From Streptomyces sp. NRRL F-5123 (GTDB lineage: Bacteria; Actinomycetota; Actinomycetes; Streptomycetales; Streptomycetaceae), in NCBI RefSeq assembly GCF_000721495.1, contig NZ_JOHY01000035.1:9230-73229 (forward strand): a stretch of DNA of 64,000 nucleotides, written 5' to 3'. Each line of letters begins with the position of its first letter. Within the stretch, counting starts at the first letter, position 1. This document shows positions 1 to 32,323 of the stretch, piece after piece. Both the position numbers and the translations under genes were made by a program. The notes beneath the pieces were generated by a model, which was not told where the DNA came from, ran no database searches, and worked only from the letters and a program-made list of their open reading frames with translations.

Positions 1-330
1 ACACCTCCGCTCGCGCGGAGAGGACACCTGGGGGCCGGACACGGGCTTTCACGTGCACGGGACACCTCCGCTCGCGCGGAGAGGACGCCGGTTCCACGGC
101 GATGGCGCTCCACACCATCGGGACACCTCCGCTCGCGCGGAGAGGACACCGACGCCCTGTTCGCCGCGTACATCGGCGACGGGACACCTCCGCTCGCGCG
201 GAGAGGACACCTTCACGGGCGCCGGCGGGGCGGCGTCGTTCGGGACACCTCCGCTCGCGCGGAGAGGACGCCGGGCCGTCGGGGGCTGCGCCGGCGGCGA
301 GCGGGACACCTCCGCTCGCGCGGAGAGGAC
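1..330 (-). CRISPR. Type I-E CRISPR array 1 (left end outside window)
   Basis: Five full 29-nt repeats start at 58, 119, 180, 241 and 302, and a partial repeat fills 1-25. Five spacers of 32 nt separate them, giving an exact 61-nt period. Read on the minus strand the repeat begins GTCCTCTCC, contains the CTCCGC/GCGGAG stem with a GCGA loop, and ends with the 8-nt handle GTGTCCCG. This is the usual actinobacterial type I-E repeat. A leader at the right end shows that transcription runs leftward. All full repeats are identical, as expected for a recent, leader-proximal part of an array. No cas genes lie beside it within the window, so it presumably uses the Cas proteins encoded at 21318-30875. 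Confidence 0.97.
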
Positions 331-378
331 ACTTCGTGACCTGCGGCGTTAGAGGGGCTTTGCAATCTCTTTGCTCGA
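331..378 (-). promoter_or_regulatory. CRISPR leader of array 1
   Basis: Directly beside the first repeat. On the minus strand it reads TTGCAAAGCCCCTCTAACG, then CAGGTCA and AAGT up to the repeat. The same blocks, at the same distance from the repeat, occur at 21129-21175 and 30850-30893. Identity with the array 2 leader extends about 45 bp and then stops. Such conserved repeat-proximal leader blocks are the integration signal read by Cas1-Cas2. Confidence 0.88.
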
Positions 379-639
379 CTCCGGTCGCGCCTGGATGCCG
401 CGGGTGCAGGTCGGGGCAGGCCGGTACATGGAACGTCAGCCTACGGCTGGGGACGCCATGAGCACCACGCGGGCGGCTGCCGTATCGAACCCGAGCACCG
501 GGTTCCCGTAATCGTCTTCGGCCCTCATCGCCACCGGGGCCGCCCACGACCGGGTGACGGTCCACCCTTCGGCCATGGGGCTCCCGGACGGCGTCGCTAG
601 GCTGCGGTTCGCAGCCGACTCAGAGCCGCCGGAGGGGCC
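379..639. other. Intergenic region, no gene seen
   Basis: This stretch between the array 1 leader and the MazG-like gene contains no ORF with convincing codon use or ribosome binding site. The array promoter (leftward) and the promoter of the gene at 640 (rightward) should both lie here, but neither is clear by eye. Confidence 0.5.
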
Positions 640-5719: not shown

Positions 5720-6585
5720 ACGGCTACGTGCCCCTGCTGGGGCTGCTCGGACTCGGCCTCGGCGCCGGGCTCCTCGTCCTCCTCCGCGCGTGGCGCACCC
5801 CGGACGCCCCGGCGGTCAAGCCCCGGATGCGCAAGCCGCGGCGGATACACGCGGGGCGGTGGGCCGCCGTCTCCGCGGCCGGCGGTCTGCTCGCCGCGCT
5901 GCTGACGGGCTGGATCGTCGGCGGTCTGCTCGCGGCGCTCGCCGTGTGGTGGCTGCCGCGCATGCTCGGCGCCGACGGGACGCGGGAGCGGACCGCGCGG
6001 ATCGAGGGCATCGCCGGGTGGACGGAGATGCTGCGCGACACGCTCGCCGCAGCTGCGGGGCTGGAGCAGACCGTCGTGGCGACGGCCGGCACCGCACCCG
6101 AATCCGTACGACCACAGATCCTCGACCTGGCCGCACGGCTGGAGTCGGGCGAGCGTCTTCCGAACGCTCTACGGCAGCTCGCCCAGGAACTCGCCGACCC
6201 GACCGCGGACCTGGTCATCGCCGCACTCGTCCTGGCCTCGGGGCATGAGGCCCGCCGGATCTCCCCGCTGCTGGGGGAGCTGGCGGCGACGGCCCGTGCA
6301 CAGGTCGAGATGCACCAGCGGATCGACGCCAACCGGGCCCGTACGCGTACCACGACCCGGGTCGTCGTCGGGACGACGCTCTTCTTCGCGGGCGGGCTGA
6401 TCGTGCTCAACCCCGCCTTCCTCAGCCCGTACGACACGGCGACCGGGCAGTTCGTGCTGCTGCTGATCGGCGGCCTGTTCTCCGCCGGCTTCGCGTGGCT
6501 GCACCGCATGGCGCACTTCGACGAGCCCGAGCGCTTCCTCACCGCGCTCGGTGCAGTCCCCGCAACCGAGCGGGAGATGAGCTGA
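5716..6585 (+). CDS. tadB: TadB-like type II/IV secretion inner-membrane protein
   Basis: 289 residues from GTG 5716, which overlaps the tadA stop (GTGA). Membrane helices lie at the N-terminus (LLGLLGLGLGAGLLVLL), around residues 55-85 (AAGGLLAALLTGWIVGGLLA), and at the C-terminus (VVVGTTLFFAGGLIVL and FVLLLIGGLFSAGFAWL). Between them is the cytoplasmic helical T2SSF/GspF domain, with EMLRDTLAAAAGLEQ and a second conserved helix pair ending in RARTRTTTRV. It forms the membrane platform on which TadA acts, together with the next gene product. Confidence 0.88.
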   Translation: MNGYVPLLGLLGLGLGAGLLVLLRAWRTPDAPAVKPRMRKPRRIHAGRWAAVSAAGGLLAALLTGWIVGGLLAALAVWWLPRMLGADGTRERTARIEGIAGWTEMLRDTLAAAAGLEQTVVATAGTAPESVRPQILDLAARLESGERLPNALRQLAQELADPTADLVIAALVLASGHEARRISPLLGELAATARAQVEMHQRIDANRARTRTTTRVVVGTTLFFAGGLIVLNPAFLSPYDTATGQFVLLLIGGLFSAGFAWLHRMAHFDEPERFLTALGAVPATEREMS

Positions 6586-16399: not shown

Positions 16400-16550
16400 C
16401 GAAGCACCTCCGCTCGCGCGGAGAGGACCACAGCCCGAGCCGGGCCGCCAGGCCAAGCCGCGGGACACCTCCGCTCGCGCGGAGAGGACAGCCAGACCAG
16501 CATGCCCGCGAGCGTGGCGTCCGGGACACCTCCGCTATCGCGGAGGGGGC
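16400..16550 (-). CRISPR. Leaderless three-repeat CRISPR remnant
   Basis: Repeats at 16400-16428, 16461-16489 and 16522-16550 keep the 61-nt period and match the array 1/2 class. The middle one is perfect. The left one has changes in the handle (GTGCTTCG), and the right one has changes in the 5' part and the loop (GATA in place of GCGA), yet both keep the stem. Two spacers are 32 nt. The DNA to the right, where a leader should be, shows no match to the conserved leader blocks, so this is an orphan fragment or a decayed array. Confidence 0.9.
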
Positions 16551-17297: not shown

Positions 17298-18485
17298 ATG
17301 TCCATCGACGTGAACGAGGCGTTCGCCGCAGGGCGCGAGCGCCAAGCCATCACCGCCCGCGACCGGCAGGGTGAACTCCGGGCGGGCGTCGAGGCCGGAC
17401 GGCTGCGGCGGCTGCCGGACGGCCGGTACAAGGTCCTCACCGGATTCGACGCCGGAGAGATCCTCAGCGCGCTGGGCGAGCCGGTGCACGGCCTGGACGA
17501 GAAGGCCAGGGGAGCCGTGGCCCTGTACTCCGCCGTCCCGGCCTGGCACCACCTGGGGCAGGTCGTCCCGGGCGGCACCACCGACATCGACACGGTCCTG
17601 TCCCTGGCCGGGATCGGCTTCGAGGTCGTGACCGTGCCCGCCTTCTACCTCTGGGACGGCCGTTACCTCCCCCACCCCGGGCAACGCCACACCGTACGGG
17701 CCGACACCGGGCAGGCGCTCGGCATCGTCGGTCCGGACTACGAGGTGATCCAGAACCGGCGCTCGTTCGAATTCCTGCAGGAGCTCGTCAGCGACACCGA
17801 CGCCGTGTGGGAGTCCGCCGGGTCCATGCGCGGCGGCAGCAAGGTCTTCGTCGCGCTGCGCGTCCCCGGCCACGTGGTGGTCGACCCCGGCGGTCTCGAC
17901 GACCGGATCGTCCCGTTCATCGTGGCGATCAACAGCCACGACGGCCGTTCCGCGTACGAGGTCGTTGCCACGCCGTGGCGGCCGGTGTGCGCCAACACCG
18001 AACGCCTCGCCGTCCAGCAGGCCGCAACCCGGTGGAAGGTCCGCCACACCCGCAACGCCACCGAGCACATCCGCGAGGCGCGCCGCACGCTGCGGTTGAC
18101 CAGCCACTACTACGACACCTGGGCCGCGGAGGAGACAGCGCTGGCGCGCACGAACCTCGCCATCGACGAGTTCAACACCGCCATCGACGAGTTGTGGCCG
18201 CTGGAGGAGAACGCGACGGCACGGCAGCAGCGCACCGCCGAGCAGCGGCGCGACCGCCTGCACGCACTCTTCGGGGAGGAAGCGTCGCGCAGCGGGCGTA
18301 CGGCGTACGCCGCCGAGCGCGCTGTCACCGACTACACCGACCACTTCGCGGCGATCCGCCCCAGCGCAGCCTCCGGGCTCAAGGGAAACGAGCCCGCCGC
18401 CCGCGGCCTGCGCCTGCTGGAAGGCACCGACGACGCGGTCAAGTCCCACGCGCACCAGCGCCTGATGCTCATGCGCCGCCGCTGA
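17298..18485 (+). CDS. DUF932 phage/plasmid-type protein
   Basis: 395 residues from ATG 17298, with AGAAGGGA upstream. The conserved DUF932 core is visible: VPAWHHLGQVVPGG near residue 75, then YEVIQNRRSFEFLQEL, GGSKVFVALRVPG, VPFIVAINSHDGRSAYEV, and PVCANTERLA. The C-terminal third is helical (RRTLRLTSHYYDTWAAEETAL). DUF932 proteins (also annotated as phage/plasmid-like TIGR03299) are encoded on many plasmids and phages; their role is unknown, with links to replication or DNA handling proposed. Confidence 0.88.
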   Translation: MSIDVNEAFAAGRERQAITARDRQGELRAGVEAGRLRRLPDGRYKVLTGFDAGEILSALGEPVHGLDEKARGAVALYSAVPAWHHLGQVVPGGTTDIDTVLSLAGIGFEVVTVPAFYLWDGRYLPHPGQRHTVRADTGQALGIVGPDYEVIQNRRSFEFLQELVSDTDAVWESAGSMRGGSKVFVALRVPGHVVVDPGGLDDRIVPFIVAINSHDGRSAYEVVATPWRPVCANTERLAVQQAATRWKVRHTRNATEHIREARRTLRLTSHYYDTWAAEETALARTNLAIDEFNTAIDELWPLEENATARQQRTAEQRRDRLHALFGEEASRSGRTAYAAERAVTDYTDHFAAIRPSAASGLKGNEPAARGLRLLEGTDDAVKSHAHQRLMLMRRR

Positions 18486-20184: not shown

Positions 20185-21128
20185 TGGATGGAACCTCCGC
20201 TCGCGCGGAGGACCTGCGGGCCCACTGGCCGTAGTCGCGGACGGCCGGGACACCCCCGCTCGCGCGGAGAGGACCTGCCCGGCGTTGTCGGTGAGCAGGG
20301 CGGCGGCGGGACACCTCCGCTCGCGCGGAGAGGACACCAGCAGTCGGTCACAGGTCCGTCACACCGCCGGGACACCTCCGCTCGCGCGGAGAGGACGGTG
20401 TCTCCCACCGGGCCTGCCAGCGCCTGCCCGGGACACCTCCGCTCGCGCGGAGAGGACGACACCCTCAGCACGGCCATCATCAACAGCACCGGGACACCTC
20501 CGCTCGCGCGGAGAGGACGGGTCGTGATCCGTGCCGCACCCCGTGCAGTGCGGGACACCTCCGTTCGCGCGGAGAGGACATGTCCGACCTGCGCGACCGG
20601 TACGCGTGGTGCGGGACACCTCCGCTCGCGCGGAGAGGACCTCGCCTGTGCCCATGCGGGCCCGGCGATCACCGGGACACCTCCGCTCGCGCGGAGAGGA
20701 CGGAGGAGCGCTACCGCGCCGCCCAGACTGCAGCGGGACACCTCCGCTCGCGCGGAGAGGACCCCTTGACGGTCTTGGAGCCCTCCACGCCCGCCGGGAC
20801 ACCTCCGCTCGCGCGGAGAGGACTACGCCACCGACGGCACCCACTGCTTCTACTACGGGACACCTCCGCTCGCGCGGAGAGGACCCGTCCTGCTGCGGTT
20901 CGGATGTCAGCCGCGCCGGGACACCTCCGCTCGCGCGGAGAGGACCGGCTATAAGGATGTTCACCCCGCAGGACATGCGGGACACCTCCGCTCGCGCGGA
21001 GAGGACGTCGCTCGATGGCGCCTGGTAGGCGCGCAGGTCGGGACACCTCCGCTCGCGCGGAGAGGACCCCGCCATGAGGATCTGCGCGTTGGGGAACAGC
21101 GGGACACCTCCGCTCGCGCGGAGAGGAC
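20185..21128 (-). CRISPR. Type I-E CRISPR array 2 (16 repeats, 15 spacers)
   Basis: Repeats start every 61 nt from 20246 to 21100, with a degenerate terminal copy at 20185-20213 that lacks two bases. The consensus is the same as array 1, with handle GTGTCCCG on the minus strand. Variants: the copy at 20246 has one change in the stem (T:G wobble), and the copy at 20551 has a stem mismatch. Spacers are 32 nt. The leader is at the right end and the degenerate repeat at the left, so transcription is leftward, away from cas3. The spacers are rich in GC and read like actinophage or plasmid DNA; for instance, the one nearest the leader is open on the minus strand as LFPNAQILMA. Confidence 0.98.
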
Positions 21129-21175
21129 ACTTTTTGACCTGCGGCGTTAGAGGGGCTTTGCAATCCCTTTGCTGT
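21129..21175 (-). promoter_or_regulatory. CRISPR leader of array 2
   Basis: Adjacent to the repeat at 21100. On the minus strand it has TTGCAAAGCCCCTCTAACG, CAGGTCA and AAAAAGT, nearly identical over about 45 bp to the array 1 leader and with the same core as array 3. The interval 21176-21317 must also hold the cas3 promoter in the opposite direction. Confidence 0.9.
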
Positions 21176-21317
21176 CTTGGCCGCGTAGGCCCGGAAGCTG
21201 GCCAGCTTCCGAAGAGATGTCGTTGTGCACGTGGTGAGTATGGGGCGAGGAGTCGCGGCTTGGAGTCATTTGCCCAGGTCAGCCCGCATTGTCAGAGGGG
21301 GGTGATAGCTCTGGGGC

Positions 21318-24170
21318 ATGGAAGCGAGCGACTTCGGTGCGGCGGCGGGCGTCTGCCTGGACTGCCGGTTATGGGGCAAGGAGAAGGGGCTGTTGCGGCC
21401 CTACCCGGTGGTGTGTCACATGCTGGATGCCGCCGCGGTGTTCTCCGCGCTCTGGGATGACCTACTGGGAGCTGAGCTGCGATCCCGTATCGCGGCAGCG
21501 CTGGGGCTCGACGAGGCGAAAGTGCGGGCGGTGCTGGCCTTCTGGGCAGGGCTGCACGACCTGGGGAAGATCACTCCGCCGTTTCAGGCGCAGGTCAAGG
21601 AGGAATTCGCCAGGCTGCGGCAGGACCCGGCGTACGCATTCGCGCGGGGCGCCGAGCGCGAGGGGGAGTTCCGGCACGAGGTAGCCACACACTGGGCGTT
21701 GGCCGAGCTCTTCGCAGATGCAGGTTATCCCGCCGGGACCGGTAACAGGCTCCTGAGGGCCGTCAGCCACCAGATCGCCCAGATGCTCGGAGGCCACCAC
21801 GGAACCGTGGGGTCGGCACTGAGTCGGCATGAGGTCGAGGGGGCTGACGCGTACAAGGCGGGGCTCGGCGGAACTGGTTGGGCCGACCAGCGGCGTGCGC
21901 ACTTCTTGGAGCTGAGGCGGATCACCGGCGGAACCGCCGTTCCGGCCGAGCTGCTGCCGGCCGAGCTGGCCGTGATCGTCCTCGGCCTGGTCATTCTCGC
22001 CGACTGGCTCGCAAGCAGCACCGAGCACATCTCCGGGCTCATGCCGTCGGCCGGGTGGAGCGGGACGCCGGACGAGCTGGACGCGCACTGGAAGCTGACG
22101 AACGCTGCGGCAGCAGGCCAGGTGCGCAACGCGCGGATCGGACGGGTGACCTTCGACGCCCAGGCGTTCGACGAGATGTTCCCGTTCGTTCCCAACCCGC
22201 TCCAGCAGGACATCGCCACGCACCTTCCCGCGCTCGTCGCAGGCCACCGCGGGGGATTGGTTCTGGTCACCGCGCCCACCGGCGACGGTAAGACGGAAGC
22301 CGCCCTGCACGCGACCTCGATCCTCGGCCGGGCCTCCGGCGCCCGCGGCTTCTACTTCGCCCTGCCCACCATGGCGACCGCCGATGGCATGTTCCCCAGG
22401 GTGCGCGACTTCGCCGGCAAGTCCCTCGGCGGCGAACGGGCCCTGGCCCTCGTCCACTCCATGTCGTGGCTGAGCCCGCTCTACGCCGCCCCGACGGAAG
22501 ACGACGCAGAAGTAGACGCGGGCCTCAGCGCAGACGCCCCGACCGCCCTGGAAGCCGATGCCTGGCTACGAGGTCCACGGCGGGCCCTGCTCGCGCCCCT
22601 GGGCGTCGGCACCATCGACCAGGCGCTCGCCGGCGTCCTCCCGCTGCGGTACAACGCCCTGCGCCTGTTCGCCCTCAACGACAAGGTCTTCGTCGTCGAC
22701 GAGGCGCACGCGTACGGACCGTGGATGCACAAGCTGCTGACCGTCCTGCTCGAATGGCTAGGTGCCTTCCGTGCTCCCGTCGTGCTGTTGTCGGCCACCC
22801 TGACCGGCCGGACGGCCGCTTCCCTGGTCGACGCCTACCGTCGCGGCGCAGGTTTCGCCGAGCCTGCGCAGATCGCGCCCTGCTACCCGGGGTGGCTGTA
22901 CGTCGACGCAGGGACCGGCGTCGTCCACCAGCCGCGCCACACCCCGAGCGCCCGCGAACGCGTCCTCGACGTCCAGGTGCGAACGGTCCGCTGGGATGCG
23001 ATGAGCGATCCGTCCTTTTCCCCTCGGCGCGGCGGTCGCCGCGCCGAACTCCGGAAGCTGCTCGCGCCGGTCGCAGAAGGGGGCGGCACGGCCCTGGTGT
23101 GCTGCACCACCGTCGCCGAGGCCCAGAGCACCTACCGCGACCTCGTCGCCGCCTTCCCCGAACTCGCCGCGTCCGACGGCGGAATCCGGCTGCTCCACTC
23201 CCGCTACCCCGCTTACGTCCGCCAGCGCATCAGCGCCGCATGCGAAACCGCCTACGGCAAGCCGACCAGTCCGCAGGAGACTCCCGCCGGGCCGCGGCCC
23301 GCCTCGATCCTTGTGGCGACGCAGGTGGTCGAGCAGTCCCTCGACCTGGACTTCGACCTCGTCGTCAGCGACCTCGCCCCCCTCGCGCAGCTGCTCCAAC
23401 GCGCCGGCCGCGCCCGCCGCCACGCCCGAGGCCCCGCGGGACGTCCCGCTTGGGCTGCCGAGGAGGACCGGCCGCAACTCGTCGTCCTGGAACCGATCAA
23501 CGAGGAGGGCCGCACCGCACCGCCGGTGACCTGGGGGACGGTGTACCCCCACTCGCTCCTTGTGCGGACAGCGCAACTCCTGCGCTCGCGGACGGGCGGC
23601 ATCAGCGTGCCGGGGGAAGTCCAGGAGATCGTCGACGAGGTCTACGCCGAGGAGTTCGTCGACCGGCTGGACGCCAGCGTGCAGGTCGAGCTGCGCGCGA
23701 TGGATGCGCAGCACCAGGCCGAGGAGCACGCCGAGACCCACCTCGCCGACATCGTCAGCATCCCCGCCCCGGCCGAGTTCCGCGGCGACCTCCACCCGCT
23801 CAGCCGCCGTGAGGCCGGCGTGACTGAAGAGCTGCTGACGACGCGGCTGGGCGCGGACACCGGTCGGCTCCTGTGCCTGTTCGAGCAGCCCGACGGCGCG
23901 CTGACCCTGGACGCGGAGGGCGACGTCCCGCTGCCGAAGGGCACCTCGCGGGCGGCTTTGAGGCAGATCGTGTCGCACGTCGCGCCGGTCCCGGGGCGGT
24001 GGCTGAGGGGCGAGGGCGAGGAGGGGCTGGTCCCGGCGTCGTGGCGTAAGCACTCGCTGCTACGGGACCTCGTGCCGCTCCGTGTGCGCCCGGACGGTGC
24101 TGGGGTGTGGGTGGGGTGGTACGGGTCGAGCCCAATTCGCCTGTCGTCACAGGGGGTTGAGAGCGGGTGA
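21318..24170 (+). CDS. cas3: CRISPR-associated helicase/nuclease Cas3 (type I-E)
   Basis: 950 residues, the usual size for actinomycete Cas3. The N-terminal HD nuclease has VCHMLDAAAVFSAL near residue 34, GLHDLGKITPPFQ near 85, GGHHGT near 160 and LADWLASS near 230. The SF2 helicase follows: TAPTGDGKTEAAL (Walker A, near 320), VVDEAHAYG (DEAH, near 460), LLSATLTG, and ATQVVEQSLDLDFDLV with QRAGRARRH (motifs V and VI, near 670-700). Cas3 is recruited by Cascade bound to a target and then degrades the unwound strand. It is separated from cse1 by about 250 bp, so it may be transcribed separately. Confidence 0.97.
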   Translation: MEASDFGAAAGVCLDCRLWGKEKGLLRPYPVVCHMLDAAAVFSALWDDLLGAELRSRIAAALGLDEAKVRAVLAFWAGLHDLGKITPPFQAQVKEEFARLRQDPAYAFARGAEREGEFRHEVATHWALAELFADAGYPAGTGNRLLRAVSHQIAQMLGGHHGTVGSALSRHEVEGADAYKAGLGGTGWADQRRAHFLELRRITGGTAVPAELLPAELAVIVLGLVILADWLASSTEHISGLMPSAGWSGTPDELDAHWKLTNAAAAGQVRNARIGRVTFDAQAFDEMFPFVPNPLQQDIATHLPALVAGHRGGLVLVTAPTGDGKTEAALHATSILGRASGARGFYFALPTMATADGMFPRVRDFAGKSLGGERALALVHSMSWLSPLYAAPTEDDAEVDAGLSADAPTALEADAWLRGPRRALLAPLGVGTIDQALAGVLPLRYNALRLFALNDKVFVVDEAHAYGPWMHKLLTVLLEWLGAFRAPVVLLSATLTGRTAASLVDAYRRGAGFAEPAQIAPCYPGWLYVDAGTGVVHQPRHTPSARERVLDVQVRTVRWDAMSDPSFSPRRGGRRAELRKLLAPVAEGGGTALVCCTTVAEAQSTYRDLVAAFPELAASDGGIRLLHSRYPAYVRQRISAACETAYGKPTSPQETPAGPRPASILVATQVVEQSLDLDFDLVVSDLAPLAQLLQRAGRARRHARGPAGRPAWAAEEDRPQLVVLEPINEEGRTAPPVTWGTVYPHSLLVRTAQLLRSRTGGISVPGEVQEIVDEVYAEEFVDRLDASVQVELRAMDAQHQAEEHAETHLADIVSIPAPAEFRGDLHPLSRREAGVTEELLTTRLGADTGRLLCLFEQPDGALTLDAEGDVPLPKGTSRAALRQIVSHVAPVPGRWLRGEGEEGLVPASWRKHSLLRDLVPLRVRPDGAGVWVGWYGSSPIRLSSQGVESG

Positions 24171-24255
24171 CCGAGTGGGTACAGTGATCGACGACAGCGC
24201 GTCGTAGTGCTAGCGACTTTTCCCAAAGGTGGCAGCCTTATGGCATCAGCTGTCC

Positions 24256-24390
24256 CCCGCCGTGGCCGCCCGCTACTGGGAGGCGGCGTAGTCGGCCACG
24301 GCGGGGTCAAAGCCCGCTTGCGCAGGCGAGTGGTGATCTCTGCCCTGCTCCCAGAGGTAGCAGCGGGCCCACCTCCACACACCTGTGGAG
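24256..24390. promoter_or_regulatory. Dyads between cas3 and cse1
   Basis: CCCGCCGTGGCCG (24256-24268) and CGGCCACGGCGGG (24293-24305) form a perfect 13-bp stem around 24 nt. CTCCACA (24373-24379) and TGTGGAG (24384-24390) form a second 7-bp dyad with a 4-nt centre, about 35 bp before the cse1 start. The first could terminate cas3 transcription; the second is in the right place to be an operator for the Cascade operon. A TATAGG hexamer at 24410-24415 could be a -10 box but has no good -35. Confidence 0.55.
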
Positions 24391-24426
24391 TCACCTTGTG
24401 TAGGGACAGTATAGGAATTGACTCAC

Positions 24427-25989
24427 GTGGCCAGCATGTTCAACCTCCTCACGGAGCCCTGGATCCCCGTCCGCTGGGCTCAGCCCGCCCCCTCCGACGA
24501 CGACCCGCCCGACCGCGTCGGCCTGCGGACCGCGCTCGTCGACGCCCACCGCATCAAGCAGCTCGCCCCGGCGCAGCCCCACGTCCACGCTGCCCTCCTC
24601 CGCATCCTCTACGCGCTCACCGCTCGCGTGACCGGGCTGGACGAGCAGGGAGCGGCGGGCGACTGGCTGGAGCGGCAGGATGAGGTCATCGACGCCGGGC
24701 AGCTCTCCAGCGCAGCCGTCGACGCGTACTTCGGCCGCTACCCGGACCGCTTCCACCTCTACGACGAGGACGGTGGGCGCCCGTGGATGCAGGACCCGCG
24801 GCTCGCCCGGCAGTGCGACCCGGCCAACACCGCGGGCGTCAACAAGCTGGTCATGACGCGGCCCTCGGGCAACAACCACGCGTGGTTCCGGCACGGAGGT
24901 GACGGTGCCCCCGACCTCCCCTCGTCCGCGGACGCGGCCCTGCACCTCCTGACCTGGCACTACTACGGCCCGTCCGGCCGCTGCTCCTCCCGCGAGGTCA
25001 ACGGCGTGAAGTCGGCCAGCACCACTGCGGGCCCGCTGCGTACGGCCCTCTCGTACCACCCCGAGGGCGAGAACCTCTTCCAGACGCTGCTCGCGGGGCT
25101 GGTCCCGCCCAGCTCCACCGTGCGCCGCGACGAGGACCTCTGCCCGTGGGAGTGGGAGAAGCTCCCTGACCCCGAGAAGGCGCCGGACGCCCCGACCGGG
25201 CCCTGCGCGCGGCTAACGGCGTGCTCGCAGCACGCGGTGCTGCTCGTACCGGGCGGTGAGAAGGGCGAGCTGGCGGCGGACGCGTACATCACGTGGGCAT
25301 ACCGGGAGGGGCGCATCCCGCGTGACGACCCGTACCTGATCTGGCAGATCAGCCAGCAGGGCAACCGCTACCCGCGGCCCGCCGACTCCTCGCGCGCGCT
25401 GTGGCGGGACGTGGACACGCTGCTTGAGCACCGTGTCAGCGACTCGGACGGGCCGCAGCCGCCGCTGGTGTTCGAGACCGCCCGTGGGCTGTGGCCGCAC
25501 ATGCGAGTGCGTGCCCTCGGCTTCGACCAGGAAGGGCAGGCCAAGAACGTCCAGTTCGTCGAGGGCGTGACGCCGTACATCCTCGGTGAGGCGGAGCAGG
25601 TGGAGCCGTCCAGCCGCCCCAAGGTCGCGCGGCTGCGGCAGTTGGGCGAGCGGTACGGGCGTCGGCTGGACCGCGCCGTACGGAGGGCCTACCGGATGTA
25701 CCTCGACGACAAGAAGGCCGACGCCGGCGCCTGGTCGGCCGACGCAGCAGCGCGCTACTGGCCTGCGGCGGAACGCGAGTTCTGGGCCCGCTTCCGTCCA
25801 CTCCAGTCCAAGGACGACGGCGCTCCGGAAGCCGCCGACTTCGACTTCGACGCCACCCGCTCGGCCTTCCTGCGGATCGCGGAGCAGGCGTACGACGTCG
25901 TCACCGAGCGGGCGGGCCGCACCCTGCGCGGCGCGCAGGCCGTCTCCGACGCGCGCATCGAGCTGTACGGCGGCCCCCGCCGCCGCTGA
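24427..25989 (+). CDS. cse1: Cascade large subunit Cse1 (Cas8e)
   Basis: About 520 residues; GTG 24427 is used here, with TTG 24418 and ATG 24436 as alternatives. The N-terminus FNLLTEPWIPVRW is the signature of Cse1. Further family features are LARILYALTARV-like LLRILYALTARVTGLD, RFHLYDEDGGRPWMQ, the loop SGNNHAWFRHG, ALHLLTWHYYGPSGR, and a C-terminal four-helix bundle. Cse1 recognises the PAM, holds the non-target strand and recruits Cas3. It is the first gene of the Cascade operon. Confidence 0.95.
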   Translation: MASMFNLLTEPWIPVRWAQPAPSDDDPPDRVGLRTALVDAHRIKQLAPAQPHVHAALLRILYALTARVTGLDEQGAAGDWLERQDEVIDAGQLSSAAVDAYFGRYPDRFHLYDEDGGRPWMQDPRLARQCDPANTAGVNKLVMTRPSGNNHAWFRHGGDGAPDLPSSADAALHLLTWHYYGPSGRCSSREVNGVKSASTTAGPLRTALSYHPEGENLFQTLLAGLVPPSSTVRRDEDLCPWEWEKLPDPEKAPDAPTGPCARLTACSQHAVLLVPGGEKGELAADAYITWAYREGRIPRDDPYLIWQISQQGNRYPRPADSSRALWRDVDTLLEHRVSDSDGPQPPLVFETARGLWPHMRVRALGFDQEGQAKNVQFVEGVTPYILGEAEQVEPSSRPKVARLRQLGERYGRRLDRAVRRAYRMYLDDKKADAGAWSADAAARYWPAAEREFWARFRPLQSKDDGAPEAADFDFDATRSAFLRIAEQAYDVVTERAGRTLRGAQAVSDARIELYGGPRRR

Positions 25990-26037
25990 CCACGCCGAGT
26001 TCGGACCCCGTACCCACCCTCACCGAGAAGGCCCCGC

Positions 26038-26757
26038 ATGACGACGATCTCCGAGCCCGCGCGCTCCACCGACCGCCTCACCCGCTACCAGGCGTACGTG
26101 CGGTGGGTCGAATCCACCTGCGGCAGGGATCCCGGCGCACGCACGACGCTGCGCAAGGGACTCGGCCGCGGCCTGGACGACATCCGCTACGTCCGCGGTA
26201 TGCACCGGCTCATCGCGCGCTGGCTGCCGCAGGGCACCGAAACGTCCGACGCCGAGCAGCGGGCGTACTACTCCGTCGCCTCGCTGATCGCCGCCCAGCC
26301 CCGGCACAGCTTCGCCAAGGACGAGCCTGAGCTGGACGTGGATGCGGCCGAGGACGTCGTGCCCCCCGCCGAGCCGGAGGACGAGCAGGAAGCCGCCTCC
26401 CCCGGGAAGGCGTACGGCGACAGTCTGGGCATCGCCTTCGCCGACGCTGTCCTCATCGGCGGCGGCAACCGCGAGATGCGCCTGTCCACCGCCGAGACGC
26501 GGCTGCATCTGCTGACGCGGCAGAGCCTGGACGGTCTGCACCGCCATCTCCCCTCCACCGTACGGTTCCTGCGCGACGCCGACGCGAAGATCGACTACGC
26601 CCGGCTGATGTCCGACCTGGCGGACTGGCCCGCCCGGCAGGGGCGGATCTCGCGCCGCTGGCTCCAGGACTTCTACTCGCGCTACGCGAAAAGCAAAAAC
26701 GAGGCCGCGAACGCCGCCGACGCCGACGAGACCCAGGACCCTGACGCGGGCCAGTAG
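26038..26757 (+). CDS. cse2: Cascade small subunit Cse2 (Cas11e)
   Basis: 239 residues, all helical. The conserved start RYQAYVRWVESTCGRDPGAR followed by LRKGLGRGLDDIRYVRGMHR is typical, as are YYSVASLIAAQPRHSF and RLMSDLADWPARQGRISRRW near the C-terminus. An acidic insertion of about 35 residues (residues 95-130) is a local addition. Two Cse2 copies normally form the belly of Cascade and stabilise the R-loop. It lies between cse1 and cas7e with short gaps. Confidence 0.93.
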   Translation: MTTISEPARSTDRLTRYQAYVRWVESTCGRDPGARTTLRKGLGRGLDDIRYVRGMHRLIARWLPQGTETSDAEQRAYYSVASLIAAQPRHSFAKDEPELDVDAAEDVVPPAEPEDEQEAASPGKAYGDSLGIAFADAVLIGGGNREMRLSTAETRLHLLTRQSLDGLHRHLPSTVRFLRDADAKIDYARLMSDLADWPARQGRISRRWLQDFYSRYAKSKNEAANAADADETQDPDAGQ

Positions 26758-26801
26758 CCCACCCCAGCCGCACCCCACCACCCTCACCACGGAGTCACAC
26801 C

Positions 26802-28004
26802 ATGCGCAGCACCGATCCCGCCCGCTTCATCGACATCCACATCCTCCAGTCCGTGCCTTTTTCCAATTTGAACCGAGATGACACGAATTCGGTCAAGACG
26901 GTGCAGTACGGCAACGCGCTGCGCACCCGCGTCAGCAGCCAGTCCTGGAAGCGGGCCGGCCGCGAGGCATTCGAGGAGCTGACCGGGCACCGCACCCTGC
27001 GCACCCGCCGGATCGGCGAGCGCGTCACCCGCGAACTCGTCGTGAAGGGCTGGCCGGACGCCCTGGCCCAGCGCGCGGGAGCACACGTCGCGGCGGGCAG
27101 CAGCATCAAGTTCGAGCTGGGCACCGACCGCGAGAAGAAGGTCATCACGAACAGGGTGCTGACCAACGCGATGATCTACCTGCCGGACCCCGCCGTCGAC
27201 GAGCTCGTCGCGCTCGCCGAGGAGCACCGGGCCGAGCTGGAGGCGGCCAAGGACATCAAGAAGACCGGCGACAAGAGCGTGCTGCCCAAGAAGCGCATCG
27301 AGGAGCTGCTGCGCGCCCGCAACGCGGTCATCAACCTCTTCGGCCGGATGCTCGCCGAGGTGGACGACGCGGGCGTCGACGGTGCTGTGCAGGTCGCGCA
27401 CGCGCTGACCACCCACCGCTCGGACGTCGAGCTCGACTACTTCTCCGCCGTCGACGACATCACCGACTCCTGGAACGACGCCACCGGCAGCGGGCACATG
27501 GGCAACGCCGAGTTCAGCGCCGGCACCTTCTACCGCTACGCGACGATCGACCTGCGCGACCTGGCCGCGAACATCGGTCCCGACCCTGAGAACCAGACCG
27601 CCCGCGAGCTGGCCGAGGCGTTCCTGAGCTCGTTCATCACCTCCCTGCCGCAGGCGAAGAAGAACGCCACCGCCCCGCACACCATCCCCGACCTCGTGCA
27701 CGTCGTCGTCCGCTCGGACCGTCCGCTGTCCTACGCCGCCGCCTTCGAAAAGCCCGTCGCCGCCACCGCGGAGGGCGGCTACGTCCAGCCGTCCGTCCGG
27801 CAGCTCGCCGCCTACGCGCACGCCGCCAACACGCTCCTGGGCCAGGACCGGGTGCTGTCCGCCGCCTGGGCCGGGCTGCCCGCGGGCGAGATCACCGCCG
27901 CCGACCTGACCGGGCTCGGTCAGCGCAAAGCGGCCTTCGACGCCCTCGTGCGCGGCGCCGTCGAGAGCGCCCTGGGCGGCAGCCCGGCGGAGGCGTCCGA
28001 GTGA
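26802..28004 (+). CDS. cas7e: Cascade backbone subunit Cas7e (Cse4)
   Basis: 400 residues from ATG 26802. RFIDIHILQSVPFSNLNRDD and KTVQYGNALRTRVSSQSWKRA form the RRM-like start and crRNA-contact loop conserved in the Cse4 family. DYFSAVDDITDSWNDATGSGH marks the thumb region. Six copies coat the spacer portion of the crRNA in Cascade. Its stop overlaps cas5e as GTGA. Confidence 0.96.
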   Translation: MRSTDPARFIDIHILQSVPFSNLNRDDTNSVKTVQYGNALRTRVSSQSWKRAGREAFEELTGHRTLRTRRIGERVTRELVVKGWPDALAQRAGAHVAAGSSIKFELGTDREKKVITNRVLTNAMIYLPDPAVDELVALAEEHRAELEAAKDIKKTGDKSVLPKKRIEELLRARNAVINLFGRMLAEVDDAGVDGAVQVAHALTTHRSDVELDYFSAVDDITDSWNDATGSGHMGNAEFSAGTFYRYATIDLRDLAANIGPDPENQTARELAEAFLSSFITSLPQAKKNATAPHTIPDLVHVVVRSDRPLSYAAAFEKPVAATAEGGYVQPSVRQLAAYAHAANTLLGQDRVLSAAWAGLPAGEITAADLTGLGQRKAAFDALVRGAVESALGGSPAEASE

Positions 28005-28873
28005 CCACCGACACCCTTCCCGCCACCGCGGCCGCCGAGGGCATCCCGCCCTCGGCCGTACCGGAAGCCGGCCTGCTGCTGCGGCTGACCGGGCCCCTCC
28101 AGTCCTGGGGCGAGCACAGCCACTTCAACGACCGCGACACCGCCGCCTTCCCGACCCGCTCCGGCATCCTCGGGCTGCTCGCCGCGGCCCTGGGCCGCCT
28201 GCGTACGGAGCCGGTCGACGACCTCGCGTGCCTGTCGGTGACCATCCGGATGGACCGGCCCGGCGTATACCTGCGTGACCTGCACACCGTCGGCGGCGGC
28301 CTGTCCGCGGACCGGACCGTCACCACCGCCGACGGCGGAAAGCGACCCGGCGACACCGGCACGCTGCTCAGCCACCGCCACTACCTCGCCGACGCCGCCT
28401 TCACCGTCGCCGTCACCGCTCCCTCCGCGGACGGCGACCTGCTGGACCGGTGCGCCGACGCCCTGCGCACCCCGCGCTGGCCGCTCTTCCTCGGCCGCCG
28501 GGCCTGTCCGCCCGAAGGGCCCCTGCTGCTCGGCCGCAGCAGCGACGCCCTGCGCCACCTCATCCGCCTGCCGCTGTCCGCCCGCACCCCGCGTGGTGAC
28601 GGGCGCCCCGCCGTGGAGTTCCTGTCCGACCGGCCGCTGGACCGGCTGCCCGTTCCCGCCACGGCGACCGCCCCGCGCAGCAACGACGGCGTCCACCCGG
28701 AGTCCGAAGTCAGCGATGACCCGGTGTCCTTCGCCCCGCGCGACCGCGCGTACCGCTCGCGGCCGCTCTACCGCCGCAGTGTGCTGCTGCCCGACACCGA
28801 GTACGCCGGCCTGGGCGCCGATGCCCTCCGAAGCCTCGCCCGCTACCTCGACGGTGAAGGGGGTCTGCGGTGA
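28001..28873 (+). CDS. cas5e: Cascade subunit Cas5e
   Basis: 290 residues from GTG 28001. Key features: GLLLRLTGPLQSWGEHSHF, then DTAAFPTRSGILGLLAAALG, and RMDRPGVYLRDLHTVGGG, the glycine-rich pattern that gives the RAMP fold of Cas5. Cas5e grips the 8-nt 5' handle of the crRNA, which is the part of the repeat that differs between the arrays here. It overlaps both cas7e and cas6e by four bases. Confidence 0.95.
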   Translation: MTTDTLPATAAAEGIPPSAVPEAGLLLRLTGPLQSWGEHSHFNDRDTAAFPTRSGILGLLAAALGRLRTEPVDDLACLSVTIRMDRPGVYLRDLHTVGGGLSADRTVTTADGGKRPGDTGTLLSHRHYLADAAFTVAVTAPSADGDLLDRCADALRTPRWPLFLGRRACPPEGPLLLGRSSDALRHLIRLPLSARTPRGDGRPAVEFLSDRPLDRLPVPATATAPRSNDGVHPESEVSDDPVSFAPRDRAYRSRPLYRRSVLLPDTEYAGLGADALRSLARYLDGEGGLR

Positions 28874-29544
28874 ACGTCTGGCTCACCCGCGTCATCCCCG
28901 ACCCGCGCAACCGCGCCGCCGCCTTCGACCTCGGTGGCGCCGGCTCGGCGGTGAACCTGCACCGCCGGCTGATGTCCCTCTTCCCCGACGGCATCGGCTC
29001 GGACGCGCGCGCGAAGCTCGGCGTCCTCTTCCGCGCGGAGGATACGCCGACCGGCACGCACCTGCTCCTCCAGTCCACGTACCAGCCCGATGTCGGCCGT
29101 CTCCCCGACGGCTACGGCACCGCCGTCTCCCGCCCGCTGGACCCCCTGCTCGACGCGCTGCGCCCCGGACTGGCCGTCCGTTACCGGTGCGTCGCCAGCC
29201 CCGTCCGCAAACCCGGCGCCACCACGCGGGCCGCCTACGGCCTGCCCGCCGTCGTCGCCCTGAGTGGCGCCGCGGCCGACGAGTGGTGGGCGCGCCAGTC
29301 CGAGGCGTGCGGGCTGCGCACCCTCACCCTCACCTCGCAGCAGCTGGACGGCATCCGCGGCCAACGCGGCAAGAACGGCGCCGCCGCCCAGCAGCGCATC
29401 AGCCACAACCGCACCCGCTTCGACGGCACCGCGCTCATCACCGACGCCGAGCTGCTGCGCACGAAGCTCGTCGAAGGCATCGGACGCGCCAAGGCGTACG
29501 GCTGCGGCCTGCTGTCCATCGCGCCTGCCAGGACGCCCGGATGA
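28870..29544 (+). CDS. cas6e: crRNA-processing endonuclease Cas6e
   Basis: 224 residues from GTG 28870. A double ferredoxin-like RAMP protein: NVWLTRVIPDPRN at the start; NLHRRLMSLFPDG, whose histidine is placed like the catalytic one of E. coli Cas6e; and the C-terminal glycine-rich loop GIGRAKAYGCGLLSIAP. Cas6e cuts pre-crRNA at the base of the repeat stem-loop, leaving an 8-nt handle. The stem-loop is the same in all arrays of the window, so one enzyme can process all of them. Confidence 0.95.
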   Translation: MNVWLTRVIPDPRNRAAAFDLGGAGSAVNLHRRLMSLFPDGIGSDARAKLGVLFRAEDTPTGTHLLLQSTYQPDVGRLPDGYGTAVSRPLDPLLDALRPGLAVRYRCVASPVRKPGATTRAAYGLPAVVALSGAAADEWWARQSEACGLRTLTLTSQQLDGIRGQRGKNGAAAQQRISHNRTRFDGTALITDAELLRTKLVEGIGRAKAYGCGLLSIAPARTPG

Positions 29545-30539
29545 GCGCGCCCGCGCGTCGCCGCCCACGTGGGTCCGGGCCCGGCCCGGGCGACGCGCGG
29601 CGCAAACTCGCGGCCCCCACGGTTGCGATGCTGCCGCGCGTTGCCGACTCGCTGTCGTTCCTCTACCTCGACATCGTCCGTATCCACCAGGACGACACCG
29701 GCGTCTGCGCGGAAGTGACCAGCCAGCAGCGCGGCACCGAGACCCTCTACCTGCCCACCGCAGCCCTCGCGTGCGTCCTGCTCGGCCCCGGCACCTCCAT
29801 CACGGCCCGCGCCCTGGCCACCTTCGCGCGCAACGGCACCACCGTGCTGATCACCGGCTCCGGCGGCGTGCGCTGCTACGCCGCCACTCTCCCGGACTCC
29901 CTCACCACCACCTGGCTCGAACGCCAGGTCCGCACCTGGGCCGACGACACGCAACGCCTGAGCGTTGCCACGGCGATGTACGAGCAGCGGTTCGGCGCCG
30001 GCACCGTCCCGGCGGGCACCACCCTTGCCCAGCTGCGCGGCATGGAGGGCCAGCGTGTCCGCGCCCACTACCAACTCCTCGCCCGCCAGTACAAGATCGG
30101 CCGCTTCCGCCGCGCCTACGACCCCGAGTCCTGGGACACCCAGGACCCCGTCAACCTCGCCCTGTCCGCCGCGAACACCTGCCTGTACGGCATCGTCCAC
30201 GCCGCGATCCTCGCCCTGGGTTGCTCACCCGCCCTCGGCTACGTCCACCACGGCAACCAGCAGGCCTTCGTCTACGACGTCGCCGACCTCTACAAGGCCG
30301 ACCTCACCATCCCCCTCGCGTTCTCCCTCAACGCCTCCACCAACCCCGAGGCCGAGGCCCGCCGCTCCTTCCGCGACGCGCTGCGCCTCTTCCGTCTCCT
30401 CCCGCGCATCGTCACCGACATCCAGCATCTCCTCGACCCCACGACCGACCGTGAAGCCCCCGACCCCGAGGAACAACTCGTCGACCTCTGGGACCCCGTC
30501 ACCGGCCCCATCCCCGGCGGCACCAACCACGCCACCTGA
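29541..30539 (+). CDS. cas1: Spacer-integration endonuclease Cas1e
   Basis: 332 residues from ATG 29541, overlapping the cas6e stop. After a 25-residue basic extension the family core appears: VADSLSFLYLDIVRIHQDD, VLLGPGTSITARALATFARNG, then LRGMEGQRVRAHYQLLAR (catalytic Glu), SAANTCLYGIVHAAILALG, GYVHHGNQQAFVYDVADLYK (catalytic His and Asp). All three metal-binding residues are present. Cas1 forms a complex with Cas2 that inserts new spacers at the leader-repeat junction. Confidence 0.97.
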   Translation: MSAPARRRPRGSGPGPGDARRKLAAPTVAMLPRVADSLSFLYLDIVRIHQDDTGVCAEVTSQQRGTETLYLPTAALACVLLGPGTSITARALATFARNGTTVLITGSGGVRCYAATLPDSLTTTWLERQVRTWADDTQRLSVATAMYEQRFGAGTVPAGTTLAQLRGMEGQRVRAHYQLLARQYKIGRFRRAYDPESWDTQDPVNLALSAANTCLYGIVHAAILALGCSPALGYVHHGNQQAFVYDVADLYKADLTIPLAFSLNASTNPEAEARRSFRDALRLFRLLPRIVTDIQHLLDPTTDREAPDPEEQLVDLWDPVTGPIPGGTNHAT

Positions 30540-30563
30540 CCCCTACGCGGGAGGCCCCGCACC

Positions 30564-30875
30564 ATGCCCTCCATGACCGTCATCGCCGCCACCGCCGTCC
30601 CCGACCACCTCCGCGGCGCCCTCACCCGCTGGCTCCTCGAAGTCACCCCCGAGCTCTACGTCGGCTCCGTCTCAGCCAAGGTCCGCGAAGAACTCTGGTC
30701 CGCCGTCTCCGCCTCCACGGCCGCCGGCACGGCGGTCCTGGCCCACCCCGCCGACAACGAACAGGGCTTCACTCTCCGCACAGCCGGCACCCAGCGGCGA
30801 GAGCCGCTGGACTTCGACGGAATGACGCTGATCGCGTTCAGGAGGGAGGGTCAAGGGATGGCAAAGGCCCTCTAA
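30564..30875 (+). CDS. cas2: Cas2e (type I-E)
   Basis: 103 residues from ATG 30564. The start SMTVIAATAVPDHLRGALTRWLLEV and VGSVSAKVREELWSAV match the CasB-type Cas2 (ygbF) family, and LIAFRREGQ gives the final strand. Cas2 is the structural bridge between Cas1 dimers. Unusually, the last 25 bp of the gene, including the TAA stop, lie inside the conserved leader core of array 3. Confidence 0.95.
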   Translation: MPSMTVIAATAVPDHLRGALTRWLLEVTPELYVGSVSAKVREELWSAVSASTAAGTAVLAHPADNEQGFTLRTAGTQRREPLDFDGMTLIAFRREGQGMAKAL

Positions 30876-30893
30876 CGGTCCAGGTCAGGAAGT
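30850..30893 (+). promoter_or_regulatory. CRISPR leader core of array 3, overlapping cas2 end
   Basis: GGCAAAGGCCCTCTAACG, CAGGTCA and GGAAGT precede the first repeat. These match the leaders of arrays 1 and 2 in order and spacing. The CTCTAACG block contains the cas2 stop codon. The array is thus likely read from the cas operon or from a promoter inside cas2. Confidence 0.85.
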
Positions 30894-32323
30894 GTCCGCT
30901 CCGCGCGAGCGGAGGTAGCCCGCGGCTGACGCCGCTTGGAGGCCGGCGGCTGACGTCCGCTCCGCGCGAGCGGAGGTAGCCCGAAACCCACCAGCGCGTG
31001 AGCCTGGGCAAGACCGTCCGCTCCGCGCGAGCGGAGGTAGCCCGCGCCGCGCTGCTGCTGCCCTCACCGACGCGGAGTCCGCTCCGCGCGAGCGGAGGTA
31101 GCCCGAACACCCCGGCGTACGAGGCGGCGGCGAGGACGTCCGCTCCGCGCGAGCGGAGGTAGCCCGGGACACCACACCGCCCTGAAAATGGTCAACGGGT
31201 CCGCTCCGCGCGAGCGGAGGTAGCCCGGCCCGCCAGGGCCTGGAGTGGTGCGCGAAGCGGTCCGCTCCGCGAGCGGAGGTAACCCGTCGGTCAGCGAAGG
31301 CGCCGACGTGCCGTTCCTGTCCGCTCCGCGCGAGCGGAGGTAACCCGGCGCTAGACCGCTTTTCCGACGCCGTCGACGAGTCCGCTCCGCGCGAGCGGAG
31401 GCAACCCGAGCTTCAGCCGCTCCTTCAGGCCGTCATCGACGTCCGCTCCGCGCGAGCGGAGGTAACCCGCGCTTCAGCGTATCGCTGGCCTGGGCGAGCG
31501 TGTCCGCTCCGCGCGAGCGGAGGTAACCCGCAGCGTGGGCGGCAGGACAGGTCGGGCTGGAGGTCCGCTCCGCGCGAGCGGAGGTAACCCGATCGTGTTC
31601 GAGAACCCGCCGCCACGTCAGTCGTCCGCTCCGCGCGAGCGGAGGTAACCCGGAGTTGCAGGAGGCGCTCGCCGGGTTGGCGCCGTCCGCTCCGCGCGAG
31701 CGGAGGTAACCCGGAACCGTTGCTCCTCCGCGGGGCTCAGGCCCAGTCCGCTCCGCGCGAGCGGAGGTAACCCGGCAGTCTGGGAGGCCTCGCACTCTGG
31801 GCTGAAGTCCGCTCCGCGCGAGCGGAGGTAACCCGACCGCCCTGGGCCCCCTGGTACGCGGCCTGGGGTCCGCTCCGCGCGAGCGGAGGTAACCCGACTC
31901 CGCGTCAGGCCCCGAGCGAGGCGTGAAGGTCCGCTCCGCGCGAGCGGAGGTAACCCGTTGGTGATGGGGCCGATGTCGGGGCCTGCGGGGTCCGCTCCGC
32001 GCGAGCGGAGGTAACCCACCGAGCCGCTGGGTCTACCTCATCGGGTCCACGTCCGCTCCGCGCGAGCGGAGGTAACCCGATCCAGCCCGGCCCCCTGCTG
32101 CGGGACCGTGTGTCCGCTCCGCGCGAGCGGAGGTAACCCGTAGACGAGCGGCCGGTGTTTGCGCGGCGGGATGTCCGCTCCGCGCGAGCGGAGGTAACCC
32201 GGTGGACTTGTCCAGCCTGATCGCCGCGGCGCGGTCTGCTCCGCGCGAGCGGAGGTAACCCGGCGACGGCGGCGCGGTCCCCGGTGTCACCCCGGTCCGC
32301 TCCGCGTGAGCGGAGGTAACGCG
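30894..32323 (+). CRISPR. Type I-E CRISPR array 3 (24 repeats, 23 spacers)
   Basis: Repeats start at 30894 and every 61 nt up to 31260, then at 31319 and every 61 nt to 32295. They begin GTCCGCTCC and keep the CTCCGC/GCGGAG stem. The first six end in GTAGCCCG, all later ones in GTAACCCG or single-base variants. The seventh (31260-31286) is only 27 nt, missing two bases of the loop. Others differ by one base: 31380 (GCAACCCG), 31990 (ends CCCA), 32234 (GTCTGC) and the last copy (loop GTGA, handle GTAACGCG). Leader at the left and degenerate repeat at the right give rightward transcription. Confidence 0.98.

Follow-up and report, generated by a model that had tools for sequence, protein, structure and literature searches.

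Two described systems, those of Streptomyces avermitilis and Escherichia coli K-12, come closest to the type I-E CRISPR-Cas locus (clustered regularly interspaced short palindromic repeats and their associated genes) that we analyze here, in a 64,000-nucleotide (nt) stretch of the genome of Streptomyces sp. NRRL F-5123 (G000:C35:9230-73229; "the window" is this whole stretch). The subject is how its arrays differ in base 5 of the repeat, counted from the repeat 5' end, and in the handle, the last 8 nt of the repeat (-8 to -1), with repeats compared in transcript orientation; T5 and G5 denote the letter at base 5. What is said of cited papers refers to the sections of them drawn on here. We think it quite probable that this is an ordinary I-E system whose repeats have drifted, that its handle classes are tolerated, and that base 5 is the class difference likeliest to affect the output of CRISPR RNA (crRNA).

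In S. avermitilis, as in the window, eight cas genes are flanked upstream by an oppositely transcribed array and downstream by another, the 29-bp repeats differ between the two, one array comes in two parts, and the listed repeat carries a CTCCGC/GCGGAG stem (PMC4762764). There, both arrays beside the one cas cluster are transcribed, interfere and acquire spacers, whereas the arrays of the window are known from sequence alone. The downstream array of the window has two handles in positional order; the cited sections on S. avermitilis do not give its repeat differences letter by letter or as handle classes (PMC4762764). With E. coli K-12 the window shares the gene set, the 29-nt repeat, the 32-nt spacer, an 8-nt handle with U at -7 and a CCG end, and a last repeat base derived from the protospacer-adjacent motif (PAM) (PMC4288178, PMC3764190, PMC3338789). 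The E. coli handle, however, is AUAAACCG, with -5 specifically contacted (PMC4288178), whereas -5 takes all four bases among relatives of the window.

Closest among these relatives is Actinacidiphila epipremni PRB2-1 (our locus L037, NZ_JAATEJ010000022.1), with a Cas1 93% identical to that of the window, an upstream array with T5 and GTGTCCCG, a downstream plus-strand array with G5 and another handle, and likewise three handles in the locus. Unlike in the window, its downstream handles are GTGACCCG (three repeats) and, in an inverted array, GTGCTCCG, and its G5 repeat starts GCGCG and is predicted to take the canonical fold (Turner 2004 parameters). Handle variation of the window kind is present in relatives, and S. 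avermitilis provides a functional precedent for a single cas cluster flanked by arrays whose repeats differ (PMC4762764).

Repeat and handle classes of the arrays

The window holds an ordinary type I-E CRISPR-Cas system: one plus-strand operon (21318-30875) with eight of eight cas genes, divergent minus-strand arrays upstream of it, and one plus-strand array directly behind cas2 (Table 1). NCBIfam I-E models for Cse1, Cse2, Cas7, Cas5e, Cas6e, Cas1e and Cas2e match above their curated cut-offs, as do the cas3 core and HD models. The repeats have I-E geometry (29 nt, with a 6-bp stem, a 4-nt loop and an 8-nt 3' handle; 32-nt spacers), and from homology Cas6e would cut at the 3' base of the stem to yield the 8-nt handle.

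The upstream arrays mostly read GTCCT CTCCGC GCGA GCGGAG followed by GTGTCCCG: array 2 has T5 and this handle in 15 of 15 full repeats, and array 1 has T5 in 29 of 29 and the handle in 25 of 29. Array 3 reads GTCCG CTCCGC GCGA GCGGAG, with G5 in every repeat, followed by GTAGCCCG in repeats 1-6 or by GTAACCCG in 15 of repeats 7-24; GCAACCCG, GTAACCCA and GTAACGCG occur once each. By position, GTAG handles occupy repeats 1-6, and GTAA handles or one-base variants of them repeats 7-24. The three handle classes differ at -6 and -5 alone, and all have CC at -3/-2. Matches to the 16-nt core (at most 3 mismatches, both strands) number 97 against 7.4 expected, far above chance. A GTA handle on the exact core occurs in 3 of 394 family genomes, with 21 matches in the window genome and one each in two others; the fraction is indicative, its denominator being all genomes rather than carriers of the core.

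The original prediction, made from the letters of the window, had all full repeats sharing the stem, T at base 5 in arrays 1 and 2 against G in array 3, and three handle classes. Our repeat listing confirms the base-5 difference, with T5 in the full repeats of arrays 1 and 2 and G5 throughout array 3. The stem is found in 44 of the 46 full 29-nt repeats of the window, and it is altered at 20246-20274 (GCGGGG) and 20551-20579 (ACGGAG). The three handle classes are real, but they do not fall one to an array, as two of them share array 3 in positional order.

Handle variation among relatives

We surveyed 49 loci around Cas1 relatives and phased their arrays by stem geometry and flank length, with handle letters unused; conserved flanks are exactly 5 and 8 nt in 73 of the 94 arrays obtained. 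Five arrays were removed by hand after inspection. Three were judged to be mis-oriented (window 65-325, L037 11315-12002, L044 11388-11587), and the other two were out of phase by one base (L059 70, L066 77). Counts therefore cover 89 arrays and 1756 repeats from 46 loci (45 relatives and the window), with 64 distinct locus consensuses. Four positions are invariant in 64 of 64 (-8 G, -7 T, -2 C and -1 G), and the others vary (-3 C58/T6; -6 G51/C12/A1; -5 A41/T14/C5/G4; -4 G35/T16/C7/A6). Such a survey had been proposed with the original prediction, and relatives indeed vary at the same positions as the window classes. Set beside the E. coli handle contacts, the survey agrees at -7 and -2 and mostly at -3, and disagrees at -5. 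Consensus handles differ between arrays in 7 of 34 multi-array loci, window included, by an earlier phasing that had handle letters in its score and required at least 4 clean repeats and CC or TC at -3/-2.

Some further observations concern handles and layouts in single loci. T at -3 is the array consensus in 6 of 64 cases, in L044, L048 and L080 (GTGGGTCG), L039 12487 (GTGAGTCG) and L077 (GTGCTTCG); this conflicts with the E. coli requirement for C and deserves notice. One array 3 repeat has C at -7. Three repeats of the 4-repeat array L085 10243-10452 carry GTAAGCCG/GTAAGCCC; this is the one run of A at -6 seen outside the window, at a locus where the Cas1 match covers residues 1-90 only. 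Downstream arrays lie on the minus strand, the reverse of the usual layout, at L037 11311-12007, L043 11452-13799 and L053 11529-13082, and in L037 forward and reversed arrays with different handles abut.

Origin of the handle blocks

In type I-E acquisition, the leader-proximal repeat is copied with each new spacer. The last repeat base derives from the PAM (PMC3338789; also PMC4762764). It follows that a change in the first repeat should mark all later repeats and that changes at -1 should not be inherited. Both predictions hold: the GTAG block lies at the leader end (chance of all six GTAG repeats lying there, 7.4e-6), and -1 variants are not shared by neighbours. The position of this block and the conserved leaders suggest that, as is typical of type I-E, the leader stands at the younger end and new repeats are copied from the leader-proximal one. 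We infer that a substitution in the leader-proximal repeat of array 3 was copied at each spacer addition, and that an A-to-G change at -5 would in this way mark exactly the six youngest repeats.

Within-array counts, which exclude the two trailer-most repeats and arrays of fewer than 8 repeats, leave 1509 survey repeats. Among these, -1 is the most variable position (76 variants), yet neighbours agree in 2 pairs against 1.8 by chance, and 72 of 74 events at -1 are single, as expected if the base arrives with the spacer. At -5, neighbours agree in 7 pairs against 1.9 by chance, 5 of the 7 being the window's own block. Runs of at least 2 account for 7 of 26 variant events at -5/-4 (in 5 separate places) and for 0 of 54 at -8, -7, -6, -3 and -2 (Fisher p 2e-4; 0.002 when separate places are counted; 0.007 with the window left out). 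Since L037 also has T5 with GTGTCCCG upstream and G5 with GTGACCCG downstream, the split between upstream and downstream repeats is probably older than the divergence of the window species and A. epipremni.

One repeat of the window, at 31990-32018, ends in CCCA rather than CCCG, a lone -1 variant of the sort expected if it was acquired with a non-AAG PAM.

Probable tolerance of the handle variants

The Cascade complex of E. coli makes base-specific contacts at handle positions -7, -5, -3 and -2, and its target recognition was lost when one or two handle bases were removed (PMC4288178). E. coli interference requires C at -3, is fully effective only if -2 is C as well, and has no need of pairing at -1; targets are discriminated by the PAM, independently of handle pairing, and a block of interference by handle-target pairing, of the type III-A kind, is excluded for this system (PMC3764190). 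Because relatives vary at -6/-5 while the positions required in E. coli stay the same in all classes, the handle variants of the window are best read as tolerated by Cascade. All three classes would then most likely be processed by the locus's own Cas6e and be loaded, presumably equally, into the same Cascade, and the repeats of the arrays would have drifted apart at positions that Cascade constrains loosely. Tolerance was one of two options offered beforehand, and the variation of relatives at the same positions, together with the S. avermitilis precedent (PMC4762764), makes it the better one. The handle had also been linked to self/non-self discrimination, a link that we do not uphold, as E. 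coli I-E uses the PAM and needs C at -2/-3, and all classes have CC (PMC3764190). By analogy, the variants should have no bearing on this discrimination, since all three classes agree at -3 to -1, the positions that face the PAM.

The second option was that the arrays differ in efficiency: Cas5e/Cas7 would read -5, perhaps also -6, and the handle classes would load unequally. The contact at -5 in E. coli structures and the importance of handle sequence in vitro (PMC4288178) point this way, as does the array-wide, systematic nature of the handle change. However, -5 and -4 are the positions most variable between consensuses and, besides -1, the sole ones with variant runs; spacers (five on the simplest reading) appear to have been acquired after the GTAG change; and two arrays with different repeats both work in S. 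avermitilis (PMC4762764). We consider unequal loading unlikely, and tolerance of the handles is the reading that we carry forward.

Base 5 and a predicted competing hairpin

In folding predictions, G5 lets UCCGCUC (bases 2-8) pair with GAGCGGA (bases 14-20) instead of CUCCGC with GCGGAG. As isolated hairpins the two are within 0.2 kcal/mol of each other in two parameter sets, and the canonical one is favoured by 0.9 (Andronescu) and 2.4 (Turner 1999) kcal/mol. We then consider folds in context, with native 15-nt flanks and four parameter sets (Turner 2004, Turner 1999, Andronescu, Langdon), these comparisons, like those of isolated repeats and of whole arrays, being confined to class-consensus repeats (array 3, 19 of 24; array 2, 13 of 15; array 1, 24 of 29). 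Across the sets, the Cas6e stem is predicted to form with a mean probability of 0.31-0.67 in array 3, against 0.84-0.99 in arrays 1 and 2 (Mann-Whitney p from 1.4e-6 to 1.9e-4; 19 versus 37 repeats). Base-5 swaps in silico shift the means in all four sets, T in array 3 giving 0.80-0.97 and G in arrays 1 and 2 giving 0.52-0.83, and handle swaps move them by at most 0.1, though the six GTAG repeats shift further in two of the sets.

In these models, base 5 appears to be the class difference that changes the predicted Cas6e hairpin most. The original prediction had treated it as a side detail, a ranking that the swaps reverse, as base 5 alters the hairpin in silico more than the handle does. The G5 hairpin (2-8 with 14-20) would exclude the Cas6e stem, and of the class differences base 5 would be the likeliest to influence crRNA output. 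For Cas12a arrays, mutation has tied misfolding of repeat hairpins to lower crRNA-directed activity (PMC6610086). Because Cas6e may be able to remodel its substrate, an effect of base 5 on processing is offered here as a hypothesis. It is possible, though we think it unlikely, that the G5 repeat is bistable. Between a fifth and a half of the precursor repeats would then sit in the register-shifted hairpin, which would be completed first during transcription and would hide the Cas6e stem, and Cas6e abundance would gate array 3.

Other G5 repeats with the same core, starting GCGCG, GTTCG or GTGGG, are predicted to fold canonically (Turner 2004). A 4-repeat array in L039 keeps GTCCG and reaches an alternative-hairpin probability of 0.15 and 0.23 in two sets, which counts against reading these starts as avoidance. 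The 27-nt repeat of array 3 (31260-31286) may have lost its crRNA boundary, because its predicted fold is the alternative hairpin (Turner 2004). Folding whole arrays with no span limit gives a mean stem probability of 0.03 for array 3 and 0.57 for array 2, but we give these values little weight, since a long transcript rich in GC will hardly reach equilibrium.

Leaders, a second I-E system and spacers

In their last 40 nt, the leaders of arrays 1 and 2 are identical at 37 of 40 positions, and the array 3 leader matches that of array 1 or array 2 at 33 of 40; the 40 nt upstream of the remnant at 16400-16550 match the array leaders at only 11-13 of 40. The leaders of arrays 2 and 3 fit the consensus GCAAA...GCAGGTCA.GAAG of 36 minus-strand and 45 plus-strand survey arrays (window included; array 1 is outside this comparison). 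Because their leaders agree, arrays 1, 2 and 3 look adaptation-competent, and the remnant does not. An alternative named beforehand has arrays 1 and 2 as silent relics and array 3 alone as live. Array 2 does end in a degenerate 27-nt repeat, the distal repeats of array 1 are altered, and the remnant has decayed. Yet degeneration lies mainly at trailer ends and also affects the last repeats of array 3, the first repeats are perfect and most others are too, and the leaders of arrays 1 and 2 have been kept, that of array 2 fitting the consensus of related arrays. We judge the relic explanation very unlikely.

The locus was also held to be served by one Cas6e. This is true of the window locus and not of the genome, as contig C50 carries a second I-E set with its own Cas6e (Cas3-Cse1, Cse2, Cas7, Cas5, Cas6e and Cas1 were found; Cas2 was not looked for), in which Cas3 and Cse1 matched within a single 1548-residue reading frame (G000:C50, L004 9945-18964). 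Could array 3 functionally belong to this second set? The set is present in the same genome, but its arrays (L004, L005, L006) have the repeat CYGCTCCCCGCGCCCGCGGGGATGGACCC, which differs from the window repeats in stem, loop and handle and varies among the arrays themselves at base 2. Moreover, array 3 lies directly behind the window cas2 with a leader of the window type, and identity between the two Cas6e proteins is 27% in a local alignment of 199 columns. Such an assignment is extremely improbable; repeat type, leader and position suggest that the window arrays belong to the window operon.

Solitary repeat-like sequences occur on other contigs at G000:C12:147926-147954 and G000:C30:73374-73402 (L098, L099), and no second repeat copy was noticed within 150 nt on either side of each. 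In phages, solitary repeats are known as RNA anti-CRISPRs (PMC10651486).

Two weak phage matches that cover most of a spacer were taken as chance. Spacer 23 of array 3 matched Streptomyces phage Raleigh at E 0.4, and spacer 5 of array 2 matched Mycobacterium phage Rey at E 1. Each match site is annotated as MuF-like minor capsid in a single record. In viral contigs, no match was found to exact 22-mers taken from four spacers. Spacers in common with relatives came down to single 14-mers, judged to be chance, in a comparison that used 28 nt of the last, 32-nt-long array 2 spacer; matches in L036 are to the window's own genome.

Features of the window

Between arrays 1 and 2 lie T2SSE and T2SSF (secretion-type) genes and a DUF932 gene (window 4259-6585, 17298-18485).

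Table 1. Positions of the CRISPR-Cas features in the window.
Feature	Window positions	Strand	Details
Leader end of array 1	1..330	-	full array G000:C35:7823-9559, 29 repeats; window holds 5 full copies
Leader of array 1	331..390	-	
Three-repeat remnant, leaderless	16400..16550	-	base 5 C, T, T; handles GTGTCCCG, GTGTCCCG, GTGCTTCG
Array 2	20187..21128	-	15 full 29-nt repeats and a degenerate 27-nt distal copy at 20187-20213 (handle GTTCCATC)
Leader of array 2	21129..21188	-	
cas3	21318..24170	+	NCBIfam TIGR01587, TIGR01596
cse1/casA	24418..25989	+	TIGR02547
cse2/casB	26038..26757	+	TIGR02548
cas7/casC	26802..28004	+	TIGR01869
cas5e/casD	28001..28873	+	TIGR01868; top solved-structure chain match 5u07_N
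cas6e/casE	28870..29544	+	TIGR01907; top solved-structure chain match 5u07_A
cas1e	29541..30539	+	TIGR03638
cas2e	30564..30875	+	TIGR01873
Leader of array 3	30834..30893	+	overlaps 3' end of cas2
Array 3, whole	30894..32323	+	24 repeats, 23 of them 29 nt
Array 3, youngest six repeats, leader-proximal	30894..31227	+	G5, handle GTAGCCCG
Array 3, 18 older repeats	31260..32323	+	G5; handle GTAACCCG x15, GCAACCCG, GTAACCCA, terminal GTAACGCG
27-nt repeat, 2 nt missing, shortened stem-loop	31260..31286	+	handle GTAACCCG

Discussion

Several points weigh against a reading in which handles are tolerated and base 5 matters most. As for the handle, variants at -5 could load unequally, because E. coli Cascade contacts -5 and a random handle there gave merely detectable crRNA binding and weak DNA binding (PMC4288178). 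A at -6 is otherwise absent as an array consensus among the 64, the L085 array with three such repeats being too short to enter, and no handle position is free of single repeats that depart from the consensus (out of 1756, 22 to 40 at each of -8 to -2, and 111 at -1). The handle is not without effect in the folds either, as GTGTCCCG adds about 0.2 stem probability to the six GTAG repeats with Turner 1999 and Andronescu.

As for base 5, the predicted stem probability of the isolated GTAACCCG-class repeat depends on the parameters (0.46 under Turner 2004, 0.94 under Turner 1999). In context, array 3 ranks lowest of 87 arrays in stem probability under Turner 2004 only; it is 8th lowest under Turner 1999, 4th under Andronescu and 3rd under Langdon. 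Its alternative-hairpin probability is the highest of the 87 survey arrays used (out of 89) in all four sets (0.45, 0.20, 0.27, 0.45), but the measure needs G5 and is zero by construction in T5 repeats, so that "highest of 87" means highest among the G5 arrays (13 of 89). A fair comparison rests on the stem probabilities and on the swaps at base 5, not on this measure. In addition, arrays 2 and 3 gave no significant protospacer in phage records (best E 0.04, a match that spans a repeat and parts of two spacers), array 1 and remnant spacers not having been searched, and expression, binding or interference data for this organism were not found in the literature searched. Among the matches listed from open-licence literature (titles and abstract starts; subscription journals mostly lie outside), neither handle classes within one I-E genome nor the base-5 hairpin is described.

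Base 5, rather than the handle, is the best follow-up of these findings: the difference offers a cheap and specific way to ask whether arrays with a common Cascade have their relative crRNA output tuned by competing repeat hairpins. If G5 repeats are bistable as proposed, one Cas6e would serve two sets of arrays, a fast T5 set and a G5 set that is slow or inducible. The handle change in array 3 marks six repeats as younger than the remainder. Together with its relatives, the locus provides a natural map of the variable and the fixed crRNA handle bases in actinobacterial I-E systems, with -5, contacted in E. coli, among the variable ones.

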